Origin: Sulfurospirillum tamanense
GTDB lineage: Bacteria; Campylobacterota; Campylobacteria; Campylobacterales; Campylobacteraceae
Assembly (NCBI RefSeq): GCF_016937535.1
Contig: NZ_JAFHKK010000022.1
Location: forward strand, 1-40,429
Direction: 5' to 3'
Length of the DNA stretch: 40,429 nucleotides
Below the pieces are notes generated by a model. It did not search any database and was not told where the DNA came from. It worked only from the letters and a program-made list of their open reading frames with translations. A program made the translations under genes and the position numbers. Below, one piece after another: positions 7,150 through 21,044 of this stretch (within the stretch, counting starts at the first letter, position 1; the number at the start of each line of letters is the position of its first letter).

Positions 7150-8014
7150 ACTTTTTCCTCTTTTCCCATAAGCTTTTGCGGCTAATGCCTAGTTTTTTAG
7201 AAAGTTCTGTGTCAGGAAACTTAGCCTGAAAAGTTGTTATAACATATTTAACATAATCATCGATGCACAAAATATCGCCATGGTCGAAAATCTTGAGCTC
7301 TGATTGGAGCACAATGGTCTCTGTAAGGTCTTCTTCATTGGTGTCAGTGGAGGAGAGAATGGCACGTCTGTTTTCAACGAGGTTGAAAATCTTGCTTTTT
7401 TCACTTTTTTTGATGGCTTGGAGGTTGATGAGGTAGAGTAGCTGTCCGCGTGGAGCTTTGATGATGCGCTCAATAGCACCAGGCTGAGAGAGCGAAATAA
7501 AAGCAAAAGGTTCTTTGATAGCTTTGGCAAATTCAAACACCAAGGCGTCGGCGTCTTTTTGATAATCTGTTTTAATGAGCACAGGAAAAGCGGTGCGTCG
7601 GTCAATTTTTTTGGTATGTAGATTTTCAAAAAGATGCTCTAGATAAGACTTGTACGTCGCATTTTCTTGAGTGAGCGCATCAAATTCTCTGAGGTGCTGG
7701 AGTTTGCGGATGAGCTCCTCGATCATGAAAGGCTTTTGGATGTAATCCTTTGCCCCTGCCTTAATGGGGTTGGAGACCGTGTCGTTACTGATGTAAGAAA
7801 TCATTAGGATAATGATGGAGGATTTATGCTTTTCGATAACAGGGTAAAAATTCTGCCCCGAAATGTTGGTGGAGAGGAGGATTGCGTCGTAGTGTTCGTC
7901 TCGTAGCGCCTCTTTGATGGTGGCAGCATTGTCACATGTATAGCCAAGGTCATTCAGCCGTGAGGCAATGCTTTGAGCCAGATAGATTTCATTTTCAACG
8001 ATTAAGATCTTCAT
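7127..8014 (-). CDS. HP1021/Cj1608-type atypical orphan response regulator
   Basis: A 295-residue protein starting at MKILIVENE; a longer TTG frame upstream is unlikely because this ATG overlaps the ispDF stop as ATGA. The N-terminal receiver-like domain (1-120) is degenerate. The acidic pair is EN, and the phospho-acceptor Asp of the usual LLD is Ser (AILLSTNISG), while the KPF lysine is kept. The C-terminus has a Fis-type helix-turn-helix (LSKKLGISRKSLWEKRKKYGI region). Length, position beside ispDF and the missing Asp match HP1021 of Helicobacter pylori, a phosphorylation-independent master regulator that binds oriC and responds to redox state. It probably acts as a DNA-binding regulator without a partner kinase. 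Confidence 0.88.
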   Translation of the reverse strand: MKILIVENEIYLAQSIASRLNDLGYTCDNAATIKEALRDEHYDAILLSTNISGQNFYPVIEKHKSSIIILMISYISNDTVSNPIKAGAKDYIQKPFMIEELIRKLQHLREFDALTQENATYKSYLEHLFENLHTKKIDRRTAFPVLIKTDYQKDADALVFEFAKAIKEPFAFISLSQPGAIERIIKAPRGQLLYLINLQAIKKSEKSKIFNLVENRRAILSSTDTNEEDLTETIVLQSELKIFDHGDILCIDDYVKYVITTFQAKFPDTELSKKLGISRKSLWEKRKKYGIAKKK

Positions 8015-9132
8015 GCGCGTGTCCAATCATAAAATTTTAATGTAGCGCTTGCCTGCACAGCAACCCCTTCGTTGCGCCCCACGAATCCGAGGTGTTCCGT
8101 GGTGGTAGCTTTAACATTAATTTGCGAAGGTGAAAGCCCTACTAAAGATGCAATACGTCGGCGCATTGCATCTTTGAAGGCACCAAGTTTTGGGGTTTGG
8201 GCGATGATGGTGATGTCGCAATGCACCATCTCAAAACCCACGCTTTTGACAAATTCCACCACTTTGCCCAGCAAAACACCCGAATCTGCCCCTTTGTACG
8301 CGGGGTCCGTGTCGGGAAAAAACTCCCCAATGTCCCCTGCGCACGCCGCGCCTAAAATCGCGTCTGTGAGGGCGTGTAGGGCCACGTCGCCATCAGAGTG
8401 GGCTTTGAAGCCTTGGGTTTGGGAGACTTCTACGCCCCCAAGCATCATCGGCCCAACGTCACTAAAAGCATGTACGTCAAACCCGTTGCCCGTGAACATA
8501 AAAGGGGAGGGCGCATCAAGACAAGAGAGTTTGGCCAAATCGCCTGCAAAGGTGAGCTTGTGGGCGCGCTCATCGCCCTCAACATACCACGCTGTGCCGC
8601 CATTTGCCTTAATGGCACTGCTATCGTCGGTAAAGCAAACATCTGTCTTTAGGGCATTTTTGAGGGCTTGGGTGTGGGAGAGTTGGGGGGTTTGGATAAG
8701 CCTAACTTCCTCACGATTAATGGGGTCATCTTGAAAAAAAGCGGTATCAGTCACCTTGCAAGCAGGCACAATCACATCAGCACATCCTGCACTTCCAAGC
8801 AGACGCGCGATGACTTCTTGGGGAACGCAAGCCCTTGCGATGTCGCTAACCATGACGTGAGGCGTGTTTACATGTAAAAGCGCGGCTTTGAGAGATTCTT
8901 GGCGGGTGTCGCCTCCTTCGCAAAAGGTAAAATCCCCAAAGTGGCGCATATAGGCAAGCTCTGCTTTGGGTGCAACAATGATAACCTTGGCAAAGGGATG
9001 CATTGCTACAAGGCGTTTGGTAGCCACAAGCCACAACGGGTCGCAACCGACACGTAACCACTGTTTTTTTACTGGAAGGCCAAAGCGCATAGAGCTTCCC
9101 GCTCCGAGCATTACTAACGACAAATCAGGCAC
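8011..9132 (-). CDS. ispDF: Bifunctional IspD/IspF isoprenoid enzyme
   Basis: Fusion of 4-diphosphocytidyl-2-C-methyl-D-erythritol synthase (IspD, about residues 1-210) and 2-C-methyl-D-erythritol 2,4-cyclodiphosphate synthase (IspF, about 213-373), two steps of the MEP pathway. The IspD part has the CTP loop LGAGSSMRFG..KKQW. The IspF part has the metal site GFDVHAF, the AHSDGDVALHALTDA helix and TTTEHLGFVGR. I start it at the GTG at 9132, which follows AAAAAAGGA at 6 bases and gives the expected N-terminus. The reading frame is open 29 codons further upstream, but that region holds the promoter. First gene of the leftward operon. Confidence 0.93.
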   Translation of the reverse strand: MPDLSLVMLGAGSSMRFGLPVKKQWLRVGCDPLWLVATKRLVAMHPFAKVIIVAPKAELAYMRHFGDFTFCEGGDTRQESLKAALLHVNTPHVMVSDIARACVPQEVIARLLGSAGCADVIVPACKVTDTAFFQDDPINREEVRLIQTPQLSHTQALKNALKTDVCFTDDSSAIKANGGTAWYVEGDERAHKLTFAGDLAKLSCLDAPSPFMFTGNGFDVHAFSDVGPMMLGGVEVSQTQGFKAHSDGDVALHALTDAILGAACAGDIGEFFPDTDPAYKGADSGVLLGKVVEFVKSVGFEMVHCDITIIAQTPKLGAFKDAMRRRIASLVGLSPSQINVKATTTEHLGFVGRNEGVAVQASATLKFYDWTRA

Positions 9133-9167
9133 ATTTTGTCCTTTTTTCACTGTTAGAGTGTTACGAA

Positions 9168-9173
9168 AGTATA
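9168..9173 (-). promoter_or_regulatory. -10 box of the ispDF operon
   Basis: Minus-strand TATACT preceded by TG (extended -10), 36 bases upstream of the GTG at 9132. The kinase gene ends upstream at 9200, so this is the only gap from which the ispDF operon can start separately. Confidence 0.5.
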
Positions 9174-9199
9174 CATTGTAGAAACTTGTTTTTCTCTTT

Positions 9200-10630
9200 T
9201 TAATTTTTGTTAGTGGCAAGGGGAAGTGTTACCACGACAACCAATCCGCTCGTAGCATGGTTGTGTGCTGTGATGGTTCCAGTGTGTGCAAGAATGATTT
9301 GTTTGGCAATGGACAGCCCAAGACCATAGCCTTGAACGTTGCGCGACCTTGCCTCATCGCACCGGTAAAACCTATCAAAAAGGTGTGCTATTTTATCTTC
9401 AGAAACACCAGGGCCGTTGTCACTTACAACAAGCTTAGCATGGGTTGGTGTGCGCGTGAGGCTTAGGGTGATAGTGGTGTCTTTGGGGCTGTATTTGATG
9501 GCGTTTTCGATAAGGTTAAAAAACACTTGTTGTAGCAGTAACTCGTCGCATAAAACAGGTGTATTTTCAAGGTCGTTTACATGTAAGTCAATCTGTTTTT
9601 TGGAAGCAACAGGCCACAGCTCTTCAATGCACTTTAGGACAATATCATCAGCTTGATTGCGGGTGAAGTGCTTGGCAAGGGATTTCTTCTCCATGTAGGC
9701 GAGCATTAAAAGATTTTTGACGATGGATTGAAGGGTATTGACGCCTTCAAGGGCAGAAGAGAGGGTGTTTTGATACTCTTGCGCCGTGCGGTTTTTTTTT
9801 AAAGCTATTTCTAGTTCGCCTTTTATGGATGTCAACGGGGTTTTGAGTTCATGGGAAACATCAGAAGAAAAACGTTTGATTTGACTTAGCGAATGGGTGA
9901 GCTTTAAATCCACTTCTTCGTTAAAGATTTGCAACGCTTTTACCGAACATGCGGTTATGATGATGGCACAAAATGCCCTGAAAAACTGCACAGGAAAGCC
10001 AAATGTCTCTAAAAACCACGCAGCATTGAAGGTGTTTCCAGGAAAGTAATTTGTGGGATAAACGGCAATAATGGCTATAAAAGCGTAAAAAATAAAAGCG
10101 ACCCCTGGGATTTTAAAATAGAGTTTGAGCTTTTCTGCGTAAGGGGTCTTTTTGAGGGATTCTCCGTAAAAATAAAGCCCAATGCCCAAAAAAAGAGAAC
10201 CAAAAAATCCATAGGTATAGCGCACGGCGGAAATAATCCCATCGTACGAAGGGTCGAGCATGACGAGAATGAAAAAATTAGTGATGCTGATGGGATAAAT
10301 AATGCGACTATCGTAAAGATAGAAGAGAAAATGAAGAGGGTGCTGTTTATGTTTAAAGCTTTCGCGGATGATAAAACGGGAAAATTCAAATAAAAAGAAA
10401 TAGGAAATGACAAGAAAAAAGGATTTAAAAGCGATGAGCACATCGTGCAGTTGAGGCTTGACATAACTGTAGAGAAACACCCACTCGACTAAAGCGTGGG
10501 AGATGCCAAATGCTCCCAAGAGCCAGATTTTTTTAGCAAAAAAGATTTGGCTTTGTTTGGTCTTGACAAAAAAAGCAAGAATGCCAAGCACAAAAAAAGC
10601 AAGACCGTAAATAAAGAGGATTATTTCCAT
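9200..10630 (-). CDS. Sensor histidine kinase with multi-pass membrane sensor
   Basis: A 476-residue kinase. The first 230 residues hold about six to seven hydrophobic segments with short loops, a membrane-embedded sensor rather than a large periplasmic domain. Then come the HisKA helix with DVSHELKTPLTSIKGE (phospho-acceptor His260) and an HATPase_c domain with NLIENAIKYSP (N box), DNGPGVSEDKI (G1), LFDRFYR (F box) and GYGLGLSIAKQI (G2). It follows its response regulator by 9 bases. Divergent from the haem-binding exported protein and the membrane cytochrome, which are its likely targets. A respiratory or redox signal is inferred only from those neighbours. Confidence 0.92.
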   Translation of the reverse strand: MEIILFIYGLAFFVLGILAFFVKTKQSQIFFAKKIWLLGAFGISHALVEWVFLYSYVKPQLHDVLIAFKSFFLVISYFFLFEFSRFIIRESFKHKQHPLHFLFYLYDSRIIYPISITNFFILVMLDPSYDGIISAVRYTYGFFGSLFLGIGLYFYGESLKKTPYAEKLKLYFKIPGVAFIFYAFIAIIAVYPTNYFPGNTFNAAWFLETFGFPVQFFRAFCAIIITACSVKALQIFNEEVDLKLTHSLSQIKRFSSDVSHELKTPLTSIKGELEIALKKNRTAQEYQNTLSSALEGVNTLQSIVKNLLMLAYMEKKSLAKHFTRNQADDIVLKCIEELWPVASKKQIDLHVNDLENTPVLCDELLLQQVFFNLIENAIKYSPKDTTITLSLTRTPTHAKLVVSDNGPGVSEDKIAHLFDRFYRCDEARSRNVQGYGLGLSIAKQIILAHTGTITAHNHATSGLVVVVTLPLATNKN

Positions 10631-14616: not shown

Positions 14617-15570
14617 TTATTCCAGTAAAAAAACATCATCTTTGAGTGCACGGTTATTTAGGTAGTTTCGAAGCCTTGTTGCAATAGCTTCGCGAAGGCT
14701 TGCGGGGTGGTGTACTTGGATGTGGGGCAAAAACGCCATGATGGTCGGGAGTATTTCCATTTCGTGGGTGATGCGAAAGGAAAGGAGTAAGCTTCCGTCT
14801 TCTCGTGCTTCTAGGGTGCGTTGGGACTTGGAGAGGGGTTTGCGTAGAAAATATTTAGCGACCACTGCGTCTACATGTAAGACCACTTCAAAAGCCTCTT
14901 TGTTTGCACTAAACCAAATATTAATCGCGTTGTCGAGTTTTTCATCGAGCGCTTTGTCGTGTGTAAAGGTCTTTTCTTGAACTTGGAGGTTGCGCATGCT
15001 TTTGAGGTGGTATTTTTTAAACACATTGGTGCGACTTTCTAGGCCGACTACGTACCAGTACCCATCAAAGTTAACAATCTTCAAAGGCTTGATTTCTGTC
15101 TGGAAATCCTTGCTTTCTTTGTGGTAGGCAAACCTCACGATGCGGTTTTTTACAATGGCCGCTTCAAGGGTGTAAATCTGCTCCATCCAGTCGCTGATGT
15201 CTTCGATGTTGAGCCTTGCGTAGATGGGGCTTAGGTCTTGGTTTTTGATTTTTGAGAGTAAGTGCTTGGCGCGAAGCGAAAAGCCTGAACCTAGGTTTTC
15301 GCTCATCTTTTCGAGCATATCAAGGACGAGTTGGTCTTGGAGGTTGGTGGTTTTGGTGAGGCAAAATCCCTCTTGCATTTGCCAGCCACGCCCTGATTTT
15401 TGGATGGGAAAGCGAATGAGCCGTTCGTTGAAATCGCGTTGAATGGTGCGCGTACTGGTGTTAAACTCTTCTGCAAGTTCGTTTACATGTAAGGTTTCCC
15501 CCTCGTACAAGCGTCGCAAGATTTCCAAAAGGCGCGTGAGGGTTTTATCGTAGTCGTGTTTATAAGACAT
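14617..15570 (-). CDS. HTH-WYL-domain regulator of the nuclease/LRR block
   Basis: A 317-residue protein. The winged helix-turn-helix at about 12-55 contains LAEEFNTSTRTIQRDFNERL. The WYL domain has YWYVVGLES at 171-179. The WCX-like C-terminus has EILPTIMAFLPHIQVHHPASLREA, closely resembling the end of the regulator at 1575-2585. The start overlaps the stop of the upstream nuclease gene by one base (TAATG), so the two are co-transcribed. The nuclease promoter and two other promoters in the block share a 17-20 bp element containing the dyad GACA-N6-TGTC, which this protein probably binds. That it controls all six genes is inference from the shared element. Confidence 0.87.
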   Translation of the reverse strand: MSYKHDYDKTLTRLLEILRRLYEGETLHVNELAEEFNTSTRTIQRDFNERLIRFPIQKSGRGWQMQEGFCLTKTTNLQDQLVLDMLEKMSENLGSGFSLRAKHLLSKIKNQDLSPIYARLNIEDISDWMEQIYTLEAAIVKNRIVRFAYHKESKDFQTEIKPLKIVNFDGYWYVVGLESRTNVFKKYHLKSMRNLQVQEKTFTHDKALDEKLDNAINIWFSANKEAFEVVLHVDAVVAKYFLRKPLSKSQRTLEAREDGSLLLSFRITHEMEILPTIMAFLPHIQVHHPASLREAIATRLRNYLNNRALKDDVFLLE

Positions 15571-17066
15571 TAGGCTTCCTTTGGCGGGGCTAGTTCTTTG
15601 AGTTTTTCCAATACTTTCACCATGGCCAATGTGTCTAGTTTGCAGTACGCAAGCAAAGCATTTCTGTAAGCCTCTTTGGTAAGTTCGTCGATTGTCGAAA
15701 GTGCGCCAAAGGCTTGCATGGCTTCCCCGCCATGGTGGACTAGGTTTAATTCTTTATAAGCATTTTCCATTTCAGGCACGAGGGCGGGGAGGACGGATTT
15801 GATAGAGTAGCTTCCTTGCATTTTGGGGTGGTAGTAGTGCTTGTTTTGAAAGGGGCTCATGAGGTCTTTGATGTTATCGTGCAAGGCCATGAGTTTTGGA
15901 GCAAGGGATGGGAAGCTTTGGGCAAGGGCTTTGATGACCCCTTTTTCAAAGCCCATGTTGTACGCCAAAATATCCGCGTCTAAGGGAATGTCTTGCGCCA
16001 ACTGGGTCGCTAACGCCTCCCTTGGGTCTTCGCCCTCACAGGCTAAAAATTCTTTGTGTTCCACCTTGCCATCGCCATAATCAACATGGATGGAGTACTG
16101 AAACGGGATTTGCATAAAAGGCCTGATGCCCCTCCACTGCGGAATTGCCTGCTGAAAGGTTTCAAAGTCTAAATGGTAAATGGGATAGCGTAGTGTTTGC
16201 AAAAACGCTTTGATAGCATCTGTGTCGATGATGGGTTTTTGGGAAAGATGGGCTTGGATTTGGATTTGTTGGGCCAACGAATAAGGAGCGAGATTGCTTA
16301 TATCTTCCAGCTTCACAATACCGCTTTTGTAAAGGGCGAGTTTTTTATCTAGGCGCAATCTTGAGATATTAAAAACACTATAAGGGGGAATTTGTCGCTG
16401 TTTATACCAACAATACCCAAATCCATCACACGCATATGGTTCGGTGCAGTGTTTGCCAATATCAACGGGTGGTTCGTTTTCTTTGTCCTCTAAATGCTCA
16501 CGAAACCTCTCTACATGTAAAGGGATATCGCTTTGTTTTTCTAGCACGGCATGGGTCACGTCGGTGATGGTGAAAAGGCTAGCAATATCAAGGGTGTCTG
16601 CGCGTTCGTATTGGTTGTTGATGTGGATGATGTTCACGCGCCTCACATCATAACCAAGGCCATTTAAAACGTAGTACTGGACGGAGGCGTCGTCTAGGTA
16701 CACGTCTTTGACTTGCGTGGAGCTTTTGACTTCGTTGATGATAACCGTGTTGTCTTCGATACACAAAATATCGACCATGACCAAAATGCCCTCATACTTA
16801 AACGTCGCCTCGTAAATATGTTTTTGCCCTGCGTTGATGTAGTCTTGAGTGAGGATGATTTTATCTTCAAAGGTGGTGCCTTCATAGGGAATGGTGACAC
16901 CATTAGGAAAAAGTGCACAGGCTAACTCTCCAACCGCATTACCTGTGTCAAAAATAGCTTGCACAGCCGCATCTGGAGGCGTGAGCACAGAGGGCGCGTG
17001 CTTTTTAAGCCAAAGGGATTTGACACACTGCAAACCGCGCGTGTAGAGGGACTTGGACAGATGCAT
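15570..17066 (-). CDS. DUF2779 protein: Cas4-like nuclease fused to a DEDD-type exonuclease
   Basis: A 498-residue protein. The N-terminal half is a Cas4-like PD-(D/E)XK nuclease: Asp99 (MVDILCIED), NEVKSS with Glu112 and Lys114, and Gln130 in SVQYYVLNG. Cys14, Cys207, Cys213 and Cys219 sit where Cas4 and AddB hold a 4Fe-4S cluster. The C-terminal half is an RNase H-like 3'-5' exonuclease domain with the DxE pair Asp300/Glu302 in YHLDFETF, a middle motif ILAYNMGFEKGV, and a final Asp478 in YCKLDTLAM. This matches the DUF2779 family, which has no settled function. Promoter-distal partner: the WYL regulator. The AAAGGAG ribosome binding site precedes the ATG at 17066. Probably acts on DNA or RNA ends in defence or repair. 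Confidence 0.85.
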   Translation of the reverse strand: MHLSKSLYTRGLQCVKSLWLKKHAPSVLTPPDAAVQAIFDTGNAVGELACALFPNGVTIPYEGTTFEDKIILTQDYINAGQKHIYEATFKYEGILVMVDILCIEDNTVIINEVKSSTQVKDVYLDDASVQYYVLNGLGYDVRRVNIIHINNQYERADTLDIASLFTITDVTHAVLEKQSDIPLHVERFREHLEDKENEPPVDIGKHCTEPYACDGFGYCWYKQRQIPPYSVFNISRLRLDKKLALYKSGIVKLEDISNLAPYSLAQQIQIQAHLSQKPIIDTDAIKAFLQTLRYPIYHLDFETFQQAIPQWRGIRPFMQIPFQYSIHVDYGDGKVEHKEFLACEGEDPREALATQLAQDIPLDADILAYNMGFEKGVIKALAQSFPSLAPKLMALHDNIKDLMSPFQNKHYYHPKMQGSYSIKSVLPALVPEMENAYKELNLVHHGGEAMQAFGALSTIDELTKEAYRNALLAYCKLDTLAMVKVLEKLKELAPPKEA

Positions 17067-17114
17067 GAGGCTCCTTTGGGGGCGATTATACTGAAATAGT
17101 TGGGTGAAAAAGGC

Positions 17115-17149
17115 AGTATAGCCAGAGAAAACGACAGCTTTGTGTCTGG
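17115..17149 (-). promoter_or_regulatory. Leftward promoter of the nuclease/WYL operon with shared element (copy 1)
   Basis: Read on the minus strand: CCAGACACAAAGCTGTC (17149-17133), 12 bases, then TATACT (17120-17115). Transcription would start about 42 bases before the ATG at 17066. The element differs by one base from the copies at 17178-17194 and 18279-18295. With copy 2 it forms a 17-bp inverted repeat around a 28-base centre. Confidence 0.75.
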
Positions 17150-17174
17150 ATGGGAAGAATTGAGCATATTTACA

Positions 17175-17212
17175 AAACCAGACATAAAGCTGTCCTTATG
17201 TCCTTGTAAACT
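17175..17212 (+). promoter_or_regulatory. Rightward promoter of the first unknown pair with shared element (copy 2)
   Basis: AAACCAGACATAAAGCTGTC (17175-17194), 12 bases, then TAAACT (17207-17212), then GCAAAAC. The start codon at 17240 follows 27 bases later, after AAAGGAG. The 20-base element is identical to that at 18276-18295. Confidence 0.75.
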
Positions 17213-17239
17213 AGCAAAACCATATCCAAAGGAGCTGGT

Positions 17240-17857
17240 ATGCTAGAAGACATCAGGGAGATTACACGTTTTGTGTTTGATATATTTGAACCAGAAAACA
17301 AAGCATTAAGTAACCCAAAAATTTGCCACAATGTTTACCGAAAACTGACTCTGCTTACAGGCAAGGCCAATTTTATCGCAGAGTATCATCTAAACATAGA
17401 TTTAGCTCACGAGATTTCAACAAACTCTTCTCTTTCGGGAGCAATGTTTGACTGGAAACACCTATTTAATGGTGAACTGGAAGCATTGAATGTTCTCATC
17501 AAAGACTATCTCCAAGAACTAACACTCCTTTCTTTGAAAGACCCCTCTTGTAGCAACCATTCCCTTGTAGGTAAAAAATACAACATGATGTATTTTTATT
17601 TTTTCGTTAAAGAGCGGTACAATGTAGGGTATATAGACCCTTGTGACTTCATGCTCACCTCACTTATATTAAACCCCAAAATTCACGATAACCAAAATTT
17701 TGACATGGCAAATCCAAGTATGCTAAACCTTGCAGATGGCAAATCAAGGGTTGCTTTACAAAATCACCTTAGAAACATAAAAAAGCTTTTGGATATAGAG
17801 CTAGAAAGACTCAAACGCTATATGGTGAAAAATTACACACTAGAGATGGTGTTGTAA
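17240..17857 (+). CDS. Hypothetical protein A of the nuclease/LRR block
   Basis: A 205-residue soluble, mostly helical protein with no motif that I recognise. It is moderately rich in Asn, Leu and Phe and lacks a signal peptide or membrane segment. The middle has KYNMMYFYFFVKERYNVGY and the end is a basic amphipathic helix. It is divergent from the nuclease/WYL operon and starts behind a promoter carrying the same regulatory element. The next gene follows after 25 bases, so the two form an operon. The coding sequence looks more AT-rich than the flanking core genes and contains no TTACATGTAA, consistent with acquired DNA. Confidence 0.75.
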   Translation: MLEDIREITRFVFDIFEPENKALSNPKICHNVYRKLTLLTGKANFIAEYHLNIDLAHEISTNSSLSGAMFDWKHLFNGELEALNVLIKDYLQELTLLSLKDPSCSNHSLVGKKYNMMYFYFFVKERYNVGYIDPCDFMLTSLILNPKIHDNQNFDMANPSMLNLADGKSRVALQNHLRNIKKLLDIELERLKRYMVKNYTLEMVL

Positions 17858-17882
17858 AAATCAAAAAACAAGGAAAAGGCCG

Positions 17883-18356
17883 ATGAAAATTAAAACCATG
17901 CCCTATAAAGTGGCTTTGACAAAAATCAGGAAAAAGTCAACACTTCACAAGAAAGACATTCGTGTTGACAAGGCTGATATTGCCACGGTGCTGAAAAATG
18001 CGCGCATCCTCTTTGTTTTTAAAATCCACAATGCAAGCATAAAAAAACAAAAAAAGATGCTACAAAACATCGGTAAACTGCCACACGCTCAAGGCATTAT
18101 TGTGAAATTTAAAATCCACCAAAACTGGCCCATGGACAATATTTTAGAAACTATGAATTGTCTCCATGGGCTACTTGATGAAACTATGCCTATTTGTTTT
18201 TGCACCTATACGACCCATGCAATGAAACCAAACAAAGCAACACTCTCAATCTTTGTAGGCAGTAGCACAAGAACCAAACCAGACATAAAGCTGTCGAAAA
18301 TCTTTCCTACACTGTCGCAAACATGTCAGGAGGAAAAGCTCAATGCAACGCGATGA
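17883..18356 (+). CDS. Hypothetical protein B of the nuclease/LRR block
   Basis: A 157-residue basic protein without membrane segments. The central alternation of strands and helices (ARILFVFKIHNAS, then a helix, AQGIIVKFKIHQ, a helix, PICFCTYTTHAM, then ATLSIFVG) loosely resembles the C-terminal domain of FtsZ/tubulin-like proteins. That is a weak visual impression and I would not name it so. The ATG at 17883 follows AAGGAAAAGG. Its 3' end contains the second rightward promoter (18276-18313) and overlaps the LRR gene by 14 bases. Confidence 0.7.
   Translation: MKIKTMPYKVALTKIRKKSTLHKKDIRVDKADIATVLKNARILFVFKIHNASIKKQKKMLQNIGKLPHAQGIIVKFKIHQNWPMDNILETMNCLHGLLDETMPICFCTYTTHAMKPNKATLSIFVGSSTRTKPDIKLSKIFPTLSQTCQEEKLNATR
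18276..18313 (+). promoter_or_regulatory. Internal promoter of the LRR/PD-(D/E)XK pair with shared element (copy 3)
   Basis: AAACCAGACATAAAGCTGTC (18276-18295), 12 bases, then TACACT (18308-18313), then GTCGCAAAC. It lies inside the 3' end of the preceding gene, 29 bases before the ATG at 18343. The 20-base match to 17175-17194, the identical spacing to the -10 and the similar downstream bases make coincidence very unlikely. Confidence 0.75.
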
Positions 18357-18912
18357 CGAGATACAGGCACTGTGCGCATGGGCAGACGCAAACCAACTCC
18401 CTTACAAGTGCCTTCCAAGAGACATGGAAGTGCTTTACTCCCTAACCATTTTGAAGCTTTTTAGGAAAAACTTGACGGAATTGCCCACATCTCTTGGTTG
18501 TCTGACAAATCTAAAGAAATTCAATGTTTTCAGCAACCGTCTTACTTGCATTCCTGTCCAACTCATGAATTGCAAAAATTTAGAACTCTTGAATTTGAAA
18601 AAGAATATGATAAGCTCGATACCGCCAGAAATCGGTCAACTGACAAAGCTTAGATACCTAGACCTTAATGTAAACGCACTAAGCGCTTTGCCAAAAGAGA
18701 TAGGCGAGCTTACCAGTTTGGAAAGTCTATTTCTCTTTGGAAATGATTTGCGTGCTTTGCCCAAAGAAATCATCAAGCTCAAAAACCTTTCTACTTTAGA
18801 ACTTGATGGCAATCCAAGGCTCGTGCTCTCGTCCGCTCAACAAGAATGGATAGAAGAGCTAAAAACAAATGGGTGCGATGTGTTTGGCCCATCAGAAGGA
18901 GATGTACAGTGA
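18343..18912 (+). CDS. Leucine-rich-repeat protein
   Basis: A 189-residue protein. After a 30-residue start there are about five leucine-rich repeats of 22-24 residues (units such as LTNLKKFNVFSNRLTCIPVQL, LTKLRYLDLNVNALSALPKEI, LTSLESLFLFGNDLRALPKEI), capped by LSTLELDGNPRLVL. LRR folds bind proteins. With the PD-(D/E)XK protein that overlaps it by GTGA, it could be the recognition or inhibitory partner of a nuclease; this is inference. No signal peptide, so cytoplasmic. The AGGAGG ribosome binding site is at about 18327-18332. Confidence 0.85.
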   Translation: MQRDDEIQALCAWADANQLPYKCLPRDMEVLYSLTILKLFRKNLTELPTSLGCLTNLKKFNVFSNRLTCIPVQLMNCKNLELLNLKKNMISSIPPEIGQLTKLRYLDLNVNALSALPKEIGELTSLESLFLFGNDLRALPKEIIKLKNLSTLELDGNPRLVLSSAQQEWIEELKTNGCDVFGPSEGDVQ

Positions 18913-20084
18913 GTGAAGAAAACAAGGTGCAAGTTCTCAAAGACTTTGTCTTTAACGACGAAGTTCAGGAGCTTTTAGCACAAATATCTGAGTGTGTGAT
19001 GGACTTTAATGTCTTGGAAATCACAGGCATGGGAACGCAAGAAATCAAACACTCCAAGCTTTTAGCGTGGATGTTTGGGGACAATGAGCACGGCTTAGAC
19101 TACGCTATCTTGGAAGGGTTCCTTAAAAGAGTGGTTGATGCAAACGATGAAGGCGAAACCCTAGAATCTCTAAAGCATTACCTCTATTTGCCTGAAAACA
19201 AGCGCAATATTACCGTGCTTTGTGAACAAGATAATATTGACCTGCTGGTTGTGGATGAAGCAAACAAGGTTGTTGTTGTCATTGAAAATAAAGTATACGC
19301 CAAGGAGAGAACGCAGGGTGAAGATGGAGGACAATTAAACAAATACACTGACATTGTGAGGCGAAAGTACAGTGGTTATGCGTGTTATTTTGTCTATCTT
19401 ACGCTTGATTCATCTTTGCCATCCAATGGCAATGAGCAGTGGATGTGCGCAAGTCACGACATGGTTGGGCAAACAGTTGAACACCTTCTTGGAACTCAGA
19501 GTATCAACTTAAAAGCTGAACTTGTGTTGTCGAGCTATGTGGATTTACTAAAAAGGAGAAAAATTATGGAAGATAAGGCACTAGAAGAGTTGTGTAAAAA
19601 AGTATGGGCCAAAAACACAGAAGCGCTTGACATTCTAATGGAGTACCGAACGACAAACCTTGACAAGCTGTATGAGATGGTTGAAAAAGAGTTCAAATTT
19701 TATCATGAAGAATATCATGCTATTGAAACTGTCGCAACCGACAAGATTTACCAGCATGTTCATGGAAAAAAATGGAGTACAGAAAATTGGGCTGTTGATG
19801 CTCATCTAGAAAAACACCCCAAATCTCTTTGGTTTGGCTATTACCATCCTAGCGATTCAAGAGCTACCAACGAAAAGCTTGCCAGTCTTTACAAAGCACT
19901 ACTAAATGAAAATATTTTAAACAAGAAAAGAGCCAAGGCTACAGAAATTTTAAAGATTAACGAAGAAGATGTAATCAACATGGATGAGGAAGAACTTCAA
20001 AAAGAGATAAATAAAGTTATTGCATTAATACGAGGAAAAATCAAAGAGTTTGAAAAAACTGTGGACGAAATCTTGGGCGCTTGA
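18909..20084 (+). CDS. PD-(D/E)XK nuclease-family protein (PDDEXK_4-like)
   Basis: A 391-residue protein starting at GTG 18909, which overlaps the LRR stop (GTGA) and follows AGAAGGAG by 7 bases; a longer frame from 18846 would run inside the LRR gene. The N-terminal half is a restriction-endonuclease-like core: a conserved IKHSKLLAWMFGDNEHGL, the acidic residues Glu106 and Asp111 (CEQDNIDLLVVDE), the ENK motif VVVVIENKVYAKE (Glu126, Lys128) and GQLNKY (Gln142, Tyr146). All catalytic positions are present. The C-terminal 200 residues are helical and charged and may bind nucleic acid or partners. These proteins are common in defence islands; the target is unknown. A small GGGCG/CGCCC hairpin spans its stop codon. 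Confidence 0.83.
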   Translation: MSEENKVQVLKDFVFNDEVQELLAQISECVMDFNVLEITGMGTQEIKHSKLLAWMFGDNEHGLDYAILEGFLKRVVDANDEGETLESLKHYLYLPENKRNITVLCEQDNIDLLVVDEANKVVVVIENKVYAKERTQGEDGGQLNKYTDIVRRKYSGYACYFVYLTLDSSLPSNGNEQWMCASHDMVGQTVEHLLGTQSINLKAELVLSSYVDLLKRRKIMEDKALEELCKKVWAKNTEALDILMEYRTTNLDKLYEMVEKEFKFYHEEYHAIETVATDKIYQHVHGKKWSTENWAVDAHLEKHPKSLWFGYYHPSDSRATNEKLASLYKALLNENILNKKRAKATEILKINEEDVINMDEEELQKEINKVIALIRGKIKEFEKTVDEILGA

Positions 20085-20128: not shown

Positions 20129-20506
20129 ATGAAAAATAGCTTCACGATTCTTATCTTGATGGCTAACATAGCAGTTGCCAACACGGCCACAACCTTTACA
20201 TGTAACGTCACACATCATGGCATGGTGATACCGCTCACGGAGCGTCAGGTACTCAGCATGGGAGAGTCAGCTAAGGCAAGCATGCAGGTAGGAAAGATTA
20301 GGGCGAAAGTGGTGATTGATGGGGTTGAAATTGAACTAAAGTATTTTGACACGGATCATTTTGGATTTGACCTTTATATGACACATGAGGGAGCCGACAT
20401 GCTGGGCTTTGACACTACTAATGAAGGAGGGGAAGATGTGCCAAATGCCTTTATTGAAAGTGCAACCCCTGCGGGAAGCGTCAAGCTTTGGTATAAGTGC
20501 AGATAG
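20129..20506 (+). CDS. Hypothetical exported protein
   Basis: A 125-residue protein with a signal peptide (about 1-20, MKNSFTILILMANIAVANTA). The mature domain is beta-rich and has two cysteines, Cys25 and Cys124, that could form a disulfide. No family recognised. It follows the PD-(D/E)XK gene by 44 bases but has its own ribosome binding site (AGAAGGGGAA) and contains a TTACATGTAA copy, so I place it outside the accessory block. Confidence 0.65.
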   Translation: MKNSFTILILMANIAVANTATTFTCNVTHHGMVIPLTERQVLSMGESAKASMQVGKIRAKVVIDGVEIELKYFDTDHFGFDLYMTHEGADMLGFDTTNEGGEDVPNAFIESATPAGSVKLWYKCR

Positions 20507-20558: not shown

Positions 20559-21044
20559 ATGAACAAAACTTTTTTCACTCCCGAAAACCTAGAAGCGATG
20601 CGCGCACTCAATGCGCGCATCGCACTCTTTCAACACAAAATCCTCAAAGAAGCCATGGCGCTTGATACTCAGCTTCAAAAGCGCGTAGCAGATGAGAAAG
20701 ACTGGCTGGTTGATTATGAAATGGAGGCGCATATTGCGTTTTATCTCAAAGCGTCTGACTCCGCCTATGACGAAGAGAGTGACAATCTGCTTGTCGTTCA
20801 CAACGAATACCTCAAAGGCATCGCCGATGAGGATGTAGAAAGCGCGTGGCGGTGGAGTGGCAACCACAATGAGTTTTCTGCCTGGAAGCACCCCATGCGT
20901 GGAGAGCATCACTGTTGGTGGTTTCATCACCTGTACGACCACACGCACCTAGGGTGGGAGGATTTGTTGCGTATCGGGCGTATTTGGGGTGATTTACATG
21001 TGTATTATCAGTATGAAAACAAAGACACTAAAGCGACCATTTAA
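20559..21044 (+). CDS. Hypothetical cytoplasmic protein
   Basis: A 161-residue acidic protein, helical at the N-terminus. The C-terminal half is rich in Trp and His (WRWSGNHNEF, HHCWWFHHLYDHTHLGWEDLL) and could bind a metal. No signal peptide, no membrane segment and no family that I recognise. It lies alone between the exported protein and dapD. Confidence 0.65.
   Translation: MNKTFFTPENLEAMRALNARIALFQHKILKEAMALDTQLQKRVADEKDWLVDYEMEAHIAFYLKASDSAYDEESDNLLVVHNEYLKGIADEDVESAWRWSGNHNEFSAWKHPMRGEHHCWWFHHLYDHTHLGWEDLLRIGRIWGDLHVYYQYENKDTKATI

Follow-up and report, generated by a model that had tools for sequence, protein, structure and literature searches.

The 40,429-nucleotide (nt) contig NZ_JAFHKK010000022.1 of Sulfurospirillum tamanense (assembly GCF_016937535.1), hereafter the window, carries between positions 14,617 and 20,084 six genes, encoding a WYL regulator, a DUF2779 protein, two proteins termed A and B, a leucine-rich-repeat (LRR) protein and a PD-(D/E)XK nuclease (PDDEXK) (Table 1). 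Comparisons of sequences, structural modelling and analogy with described regulators suggest that this block is a mosaic defence and DNA-damage island run by one DriD-like activator, the WYL protein, through a repeated promoter element; we put the probability of this reading at about 0.7. To our knowledge, how defence islands are switched on in bacteria is poorly known.

The element, CCAGACAYAAAGCTGTC, is found in three exact copies in the window, one of them within the 3′ end of gene B, and exactly 12 base pairs (bp) separate each copy from its TANACT box, just as the first-pass annotation had described. With as many as three mismatches allowed, shuffled sequence gives an expectation of 0.19 matches, and a count of three was not reached in any of 100 shuffles. 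The 14-bp inner part has no copy with up to one mismatch in the rest of the 2.46-Mb genome. When the core is left free, the pattern GACA-N6-TGTC-N12-TANNNT has four sites in the whole genome, all within 17115–18313; the fourth is element 2 read on the opposite strand, where TATGCT takes the place of the −10. This leftward reading is a possible second promoter for DUF2779, judged from its sequence. The leftward TATGCT at 12 bp is present in both sister genomes.

The element is widespread in the order Campylobacterales, where many of the contigs compared are fragments of metagenome-assembled genomes (MAGs) and gene calls are simple. A search of other genomes, proposed in the first-pass annotation and allowing up to one mismatch, covered 399 Campylobacterales genomes; 28 of them carry the element, with 43 sites in total, versus one site for the reversed control. 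TANNNT stands at exactly +12 in 32 of the 46 sites not chosen for a −10 and, counted by downstream gene cluster, in 22 of 32. In 46 of 61 cases the distance from the element to the start codon is 36–50 nt. A core-free search with TATAMT finds 49 sites in 200 genomes versus 3 when reversed. About 35 gene clusters stand behind the element. The most frequent cargo is a protein of 700 amino acids with two AAA domains (13 copies, for example L026:336-2441), which PADLOC describes as IetA/TRIP13-like, and further cargo includes LRR, DUF2779, FtsZ-like, SIR2, HD, DnaB_C-like, DnaA-like and PcfJ-like proteins as well as WYL itself, the element lying directly before WYL genes in L163, L164 and L069. 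GmrSD, macro-domain, ADP-ribosylglycohydrolase, PDDEXK_4 and McrBC genes are found near the element in the same islands. Furthermore, most relatives of protein A, collected by protein only, have a box with a diverged core some 60 nt before the start; this is an independent footprint of the box, and several genomes have a protein A relative and a WYL gene on one contig. Co-regulation through one promoter element, as originally proposed, is strongly supported by these comparisons and extends far beyond the window locus.

The regulator is linked to the element in its distribution. Of the 28 element genomes, 15 encode a WYL homologue of 45% identity or more, versus 1 of 32 genomes without the element (p = 1e-5); the homologue is usually on the contig of the element. 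Box grammar was sampled at 66 loci, mostly WYL-bearing, among which the YAAAGN loci were partly chosen for carrying the element: TANNNT follows GACA-N5/6-TGTC 68 times at an offset of 12 and 2–19 times at other offsets, and on the WYL tree the YAAAGN core requires 9 changes versus 18.3 when shuffled and the CAWCC core 2 versus 3.9, with none of 500 shuffles as low. One WYL clade has CAWCC cores, and YAAAGN cores are concentrated in another single clade. G090 and G322 belong to a different family of Campylobacterales; their islands contain a 35%-identical WYL protein together with protein A, and most of the boxes have an AAATA-type core; the G090 island also has DUF2779 and McrBC. The box core changes with the WYL clade. 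In the AlphaFold model of the window protein, helices 77–140 lie between the helix-turn-helix (HTH) and WYL domains. The best structural match is DriD (E = 2e-15), followed by PafBC (1e-11) and CapW/BrxR (about 1e-8), and the C-terminal part aligns with DriD at Z 16.6 and a root-mean-square deviation of 3.7 (187 aligned).

DriD of Caulobacter crescentus is a homodimeric WYL activator turned on by single-stranded DNA (ssDNA). Its binding site extends over the −35, always equally far from the −10, and its targets include the division inhibitor DidA and nucleases (PMC12340889, PMC4211646). GACA-N5-TGTC is part of the DriD test site as printed. In the three printed DriD promoters, 12 bp separate CTG(T/G)C from the −10, provided that the G-14 described in the paper corresponds to the invariant G at position 11. 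The window system resembles DriD in its HTH-WYL-WCX regulator, in the GACA...TGTC pseudo-palindrome over the −35 and, by that register, in the 12 bp to the −10. In contrast, DriD serves dispersed chromosomal repair and division genes, whereas here exchangeable defence cassettes lie in one island and regulator/box pairs form an order-wide family. PafBC of mycobacteria, which contacts a −26 motif (PMC11804915), and SiwR, whose palindrome lies between the −35 and −10 (PMC10693628), are likewise WYL activators of a genotoxic-stress response, but PafBC works as a heterodimer, and control of defence cassettes is not known for either.

From these similarities, a mechanism can be proposed. The WYL protein would act as a DriD-like homodimer and would detect a nucleic acid through its WYL domain, most probably ssDNA arising from damage or phage replication. 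The dimer would bind GACA-YAAAGC-TGTC over the −35, 12 bp before the −10, and recruit RNA polymerase, activating its own DUF2779-WYL operon and each box-bearing neighbouring cassette. Among the induced products, DUF2779 and PDDEXK would attack DNA, the LRR protein would sense or guide, and protein B, a fragment of FtsZ (see below), would cap FtsZ filaments and stop division. The cassettes would each bring their own box and be swapped between islands.

Several points weigh against this activator reading. The N12-to-−10 register of DriD is deduced from the conserved G-14, the box spacer is 6 bp here versus 5 bp in the DriD site, and a basic WYL motif is KKYHLKSM in the window protein versus RSWRLDRM in DriD. 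The window WYL falls into a supported set with WYL proteins whose islands have other cores, many WYL loci lack an exact box, and the sampling of YAAAGN loci was partly guided by the element. That the box is bound, that transcription is activated and not repressed, that ssDNA is the signal and what each product does are all inferred. There is a small but real chance that the WYL protein instead acts at the box as a repressor and frees the cassettes on infection. CapW of the cyclic oligonucleotide-based antiphage signalling system (CBASS) and BrxR of the bacteriophage exclusion system (BREX), WYL regulators that likewise reside in defence islands and have palindromic operators, are repressors of single defence systems (PMC9122588, PMC9122601); a palindrome over the −35 might block polymerase as easily as help it; and a box before the regulator's own operon, or directly before WYL genes as in the three loci above, fits autorepression. 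However, CapW operators overlap the −10 and the BrxR operator is downstream of the predicted −10, whereas in each of the three window copies 12 bp lie between the end of the palindrome and the −10 downstream of it, and the palindrome is common to many unrelated cassettes. Repression would not need one fixed distance in so many promoters, and the WYL model is nearer to the activators DriD and PafBC. Because of these operator positions and the closeness of the model to DriD, activation is favoured. It is very unlikely that the box is read by a different genome-encoded regulator with the adjacent WYL as a mere passenger: some genomes (e.g., G147 and G325) have sites resembling the element though no close WYL homologue was found in them, and the window WYL and its core do not strictly share a clade, but close homologues are concentrated in element genomes, mostly on the same contig, and the core varies with the WYL clade.

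The mosaic part of the preferred reading comes from exchange of cargo. In the sister genome (G001, MAG Kmv14, L021/L089), the flanks are the same as in the window and the element is present at the orthologous site, in four copies. Homology of 92% spans DUF2779 and the divergent element pair, ends at 17195, one base past element 2, and picks up again at 20568. The DUF2779/WYL pair and protein A are retained. The interval between the two stretches of homology holds an HD protein, McrBC and an AAA_14/DUF4143 ATPase, and this site lacks B, LRR and PDDEXK. Protein A stands at a different place in this interval, with an element, and so has moved along with its box. Furthermore, an LRR gene and then a SIR2 gene directly follow the element at L165:15375-16726 and L072:775-2108, in parallel with LRR-PDDEXK of the window, suggesting one LRR family with exchangeable effectors (SIR2 or PDDEXK), and a near PDDEXK relative in G393 occurs without LRR. 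The first-pass annotation had taken the six genes for one dedicated defence system and had named separation of the genes in relatives as an outcome that would refute this, which is what the comparison gives. The same element indeed precedes all six, and LRR and PDDEXK are translationally coupled, but with the other cargo of the sister genome, LRR paired with SIR2 or PDDEXK alone elsewhere, and A, DUF2779 and WYL found with other partners, this proposal is now hardly tenable, and a mosaic island whose cassettes share one switch is the likelier interpretation of the sequences. Equally improbable is that the element is a recombination junction for cassette exchange with a secondary resemblance to a promoter. 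Homology to the sister genome does end one base after it, and elements lie in or just past the 3′ ends of preceding genes (B, McrC, and in L165, L167, L174 and L176). A recombination site, however, would need neither a −10 at fixed spacing nor a conserved distance to the start codon, no recombinase was recognised as a consistent neighbour of the element, and protein A retains its box though the cores have diverged.

Protein B, listed as unknown in the first-pass annotation, is by its alignment derived from FtsZ. Of 379 genomes, 242 have a match to it, mostly a single one per genome, in a protein of 370–400 amino acids; in the genome of the window this protein is FtsZ, adjoining an ftsA-like gene by sequence reading. 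The alignment of B to it (E = 3e-11) covers the T7 loop and the C-terminal domain, and the GTP-binding domain with the tubulin signature is not present in it. Degenerate FtsZ-like cargo is also found behind the element at L164:13128-14021, L165:7171-7932, L084:4648-5409 and L167:7066-8079, with the GTP-binding signature missing or altered in L164, L165/L084 and L167 and the T7 loop motif missing too in L164 and L167; mutual identity is only about 26–36%, except for one near-identical pair. FtsZ pieces behind the element are notable since DidA, a known target of DriD, is a division inhibitor, and by this analogy they are possibly induced division poisons. SulA-type SOS division inhibitors and DidA would share with B the predicted division arrest during damage, but B is a piece of FtsZ itself and no relative of SulA or DidA. 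Element cargo resembling parts of further essential proteins, the DnaA ATPase domain, the DnaB C-terminal domain and the IF-2 N-terminal region, occurs at L159:2026-2757, L158:8687-9340 and L164:11636-12325.

A box common to about 35 unrelated gene families is a sequence handle for predicting response genes, including those without recognised domains such as A. It links defence to the sensing of DNA damage, with the FtsZ pieces suggesting division arrest, and suggests that bacteria may connect new defence genes to a DNA-damage alarm that they already possess. A bolder version is tentative and rather doubtful: matched WYL activator/box pairs differing only in the box core would exist across the order, unrelated cassettes would be inserted with their own box, and all would be fired by ssDNA together with broken copies of the cell's FtsZ, DnaA or DnaB, halting division and replication in infection. 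Searches confined to the open-access literature found no description of the box or of a WYL regulon in Campylobacterota, and nothing close to the FtsZ fragments or to LRR-SIR2 in defence.

Table 1. Promoter elements and genes of the island (window coordinates).
Feature	Position	Strand	Remarks
WYL regulator: HTH, helical linker, WYL, WCX	14617–15570	−	Pfam HTH_DeoR/HTH_11, WYL, WCX; AlphaFold model nearest DriD
DUF2779 protein: N-terminal region weakly Cas4-like, C-terminal DEDD exonuclease-like domain	15570–17066	−	PF11074, 155.8 bits (cut-off 23.3)
Element 1, putative operator for DUF2779-WYL	17133–17149	−	−10 TATACT at 17115–17120
Element 2, leftward reading	17163–17194	−	TATGCT 12 bp away
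Element 2, predicted to serve A-B	17178–17194	+	−10 TAAACT at 17207–17212
Protein A	17240–17857	+	No fold assigned to family; relatives mostly with own box
Protein B, FtsZ fragment	17883–18356	+	Alignment to the genome's own FtsZ
Element 3, predicted to serve LRR-PDDEXK	18279–18295	+	−10 TACACT at 18308–18313
LRR protein	18343–18912	+	Pfam LRR_8; relatives directly behind element in other genomes (cluster of 5)
PD-(D/E)XK nuclease	18909–20084	+	PDDEXK_4; PADLOC candidate PDC-S26; most likely GTG start
Small protein	20129–20506	+	Signal-peptide-like start; 45% relative directly behind element in L083
161-amino-acid protein	20559–21044	+	Retained in sister genome; 53% relative within G322 WYL island

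The identities given earlier to the WYL-WCX, DUF2779, LRR and PDDEXK_4 proteins are borne out by Pfam. In the DUF2779 protein, the N-terminal half matches a Cas4 profile weakly (E = 0.007), nuclease-like motifs, including D/ExK, are found (VMVDIL/EVKSST, DFETF and YCKLDT), and there are four cysteines (14, 207, 213 and 219) as in Cas4-type nucleases. DUF2779 is the most constant partner of WYL and adjoins it in many genomes. A tie of DUF2779 to this exact element was rejected, as several DUF2779 loci have a box with another core. The model of protein A is good (predicted local distance difference test score, pLDDT, 85) and gave no significant match in the structure search. The PDDEXK protein matches the PADLOC PDC-S26 model (198 bits, E = 7e-59) and differs from that system in its coupling to the LRR protein and WYL box control; from the sequence, the GTG overlapping the LRR stop is preferred as its start to position 18846 chosen earlier. 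Relatives of the last two genes of Table 1 sit in other WYL islands, and both genes are probably also part of the island.

Five matches to the element in viral sequences all lie within coding regions of unrelated phage contigs and were taken as chance, and matches outside Campylobacterota in a GTDB scan were set aside, about 15 of 63 matches being expected by chance by estimate. The PafBC motif TTGTCRGTG-N8-TANNNT is no part of the evidence for the activator reading. The nearest relative of PDDEXK, at L185 around 8000–10200 (G393:C1:1173021-1175151), adjoins a stop-containing WYL remnant and a metallophosphoesterase gene, and this locus looks like a decayed island. A metallophosphoesterase starting with MKILHTTDLHFNK or similar recurs in or near islands, at L067:6097-6339, L177:10117-10638, L023:5077-5652, L185:8231-8827 and L254:5100-5726.

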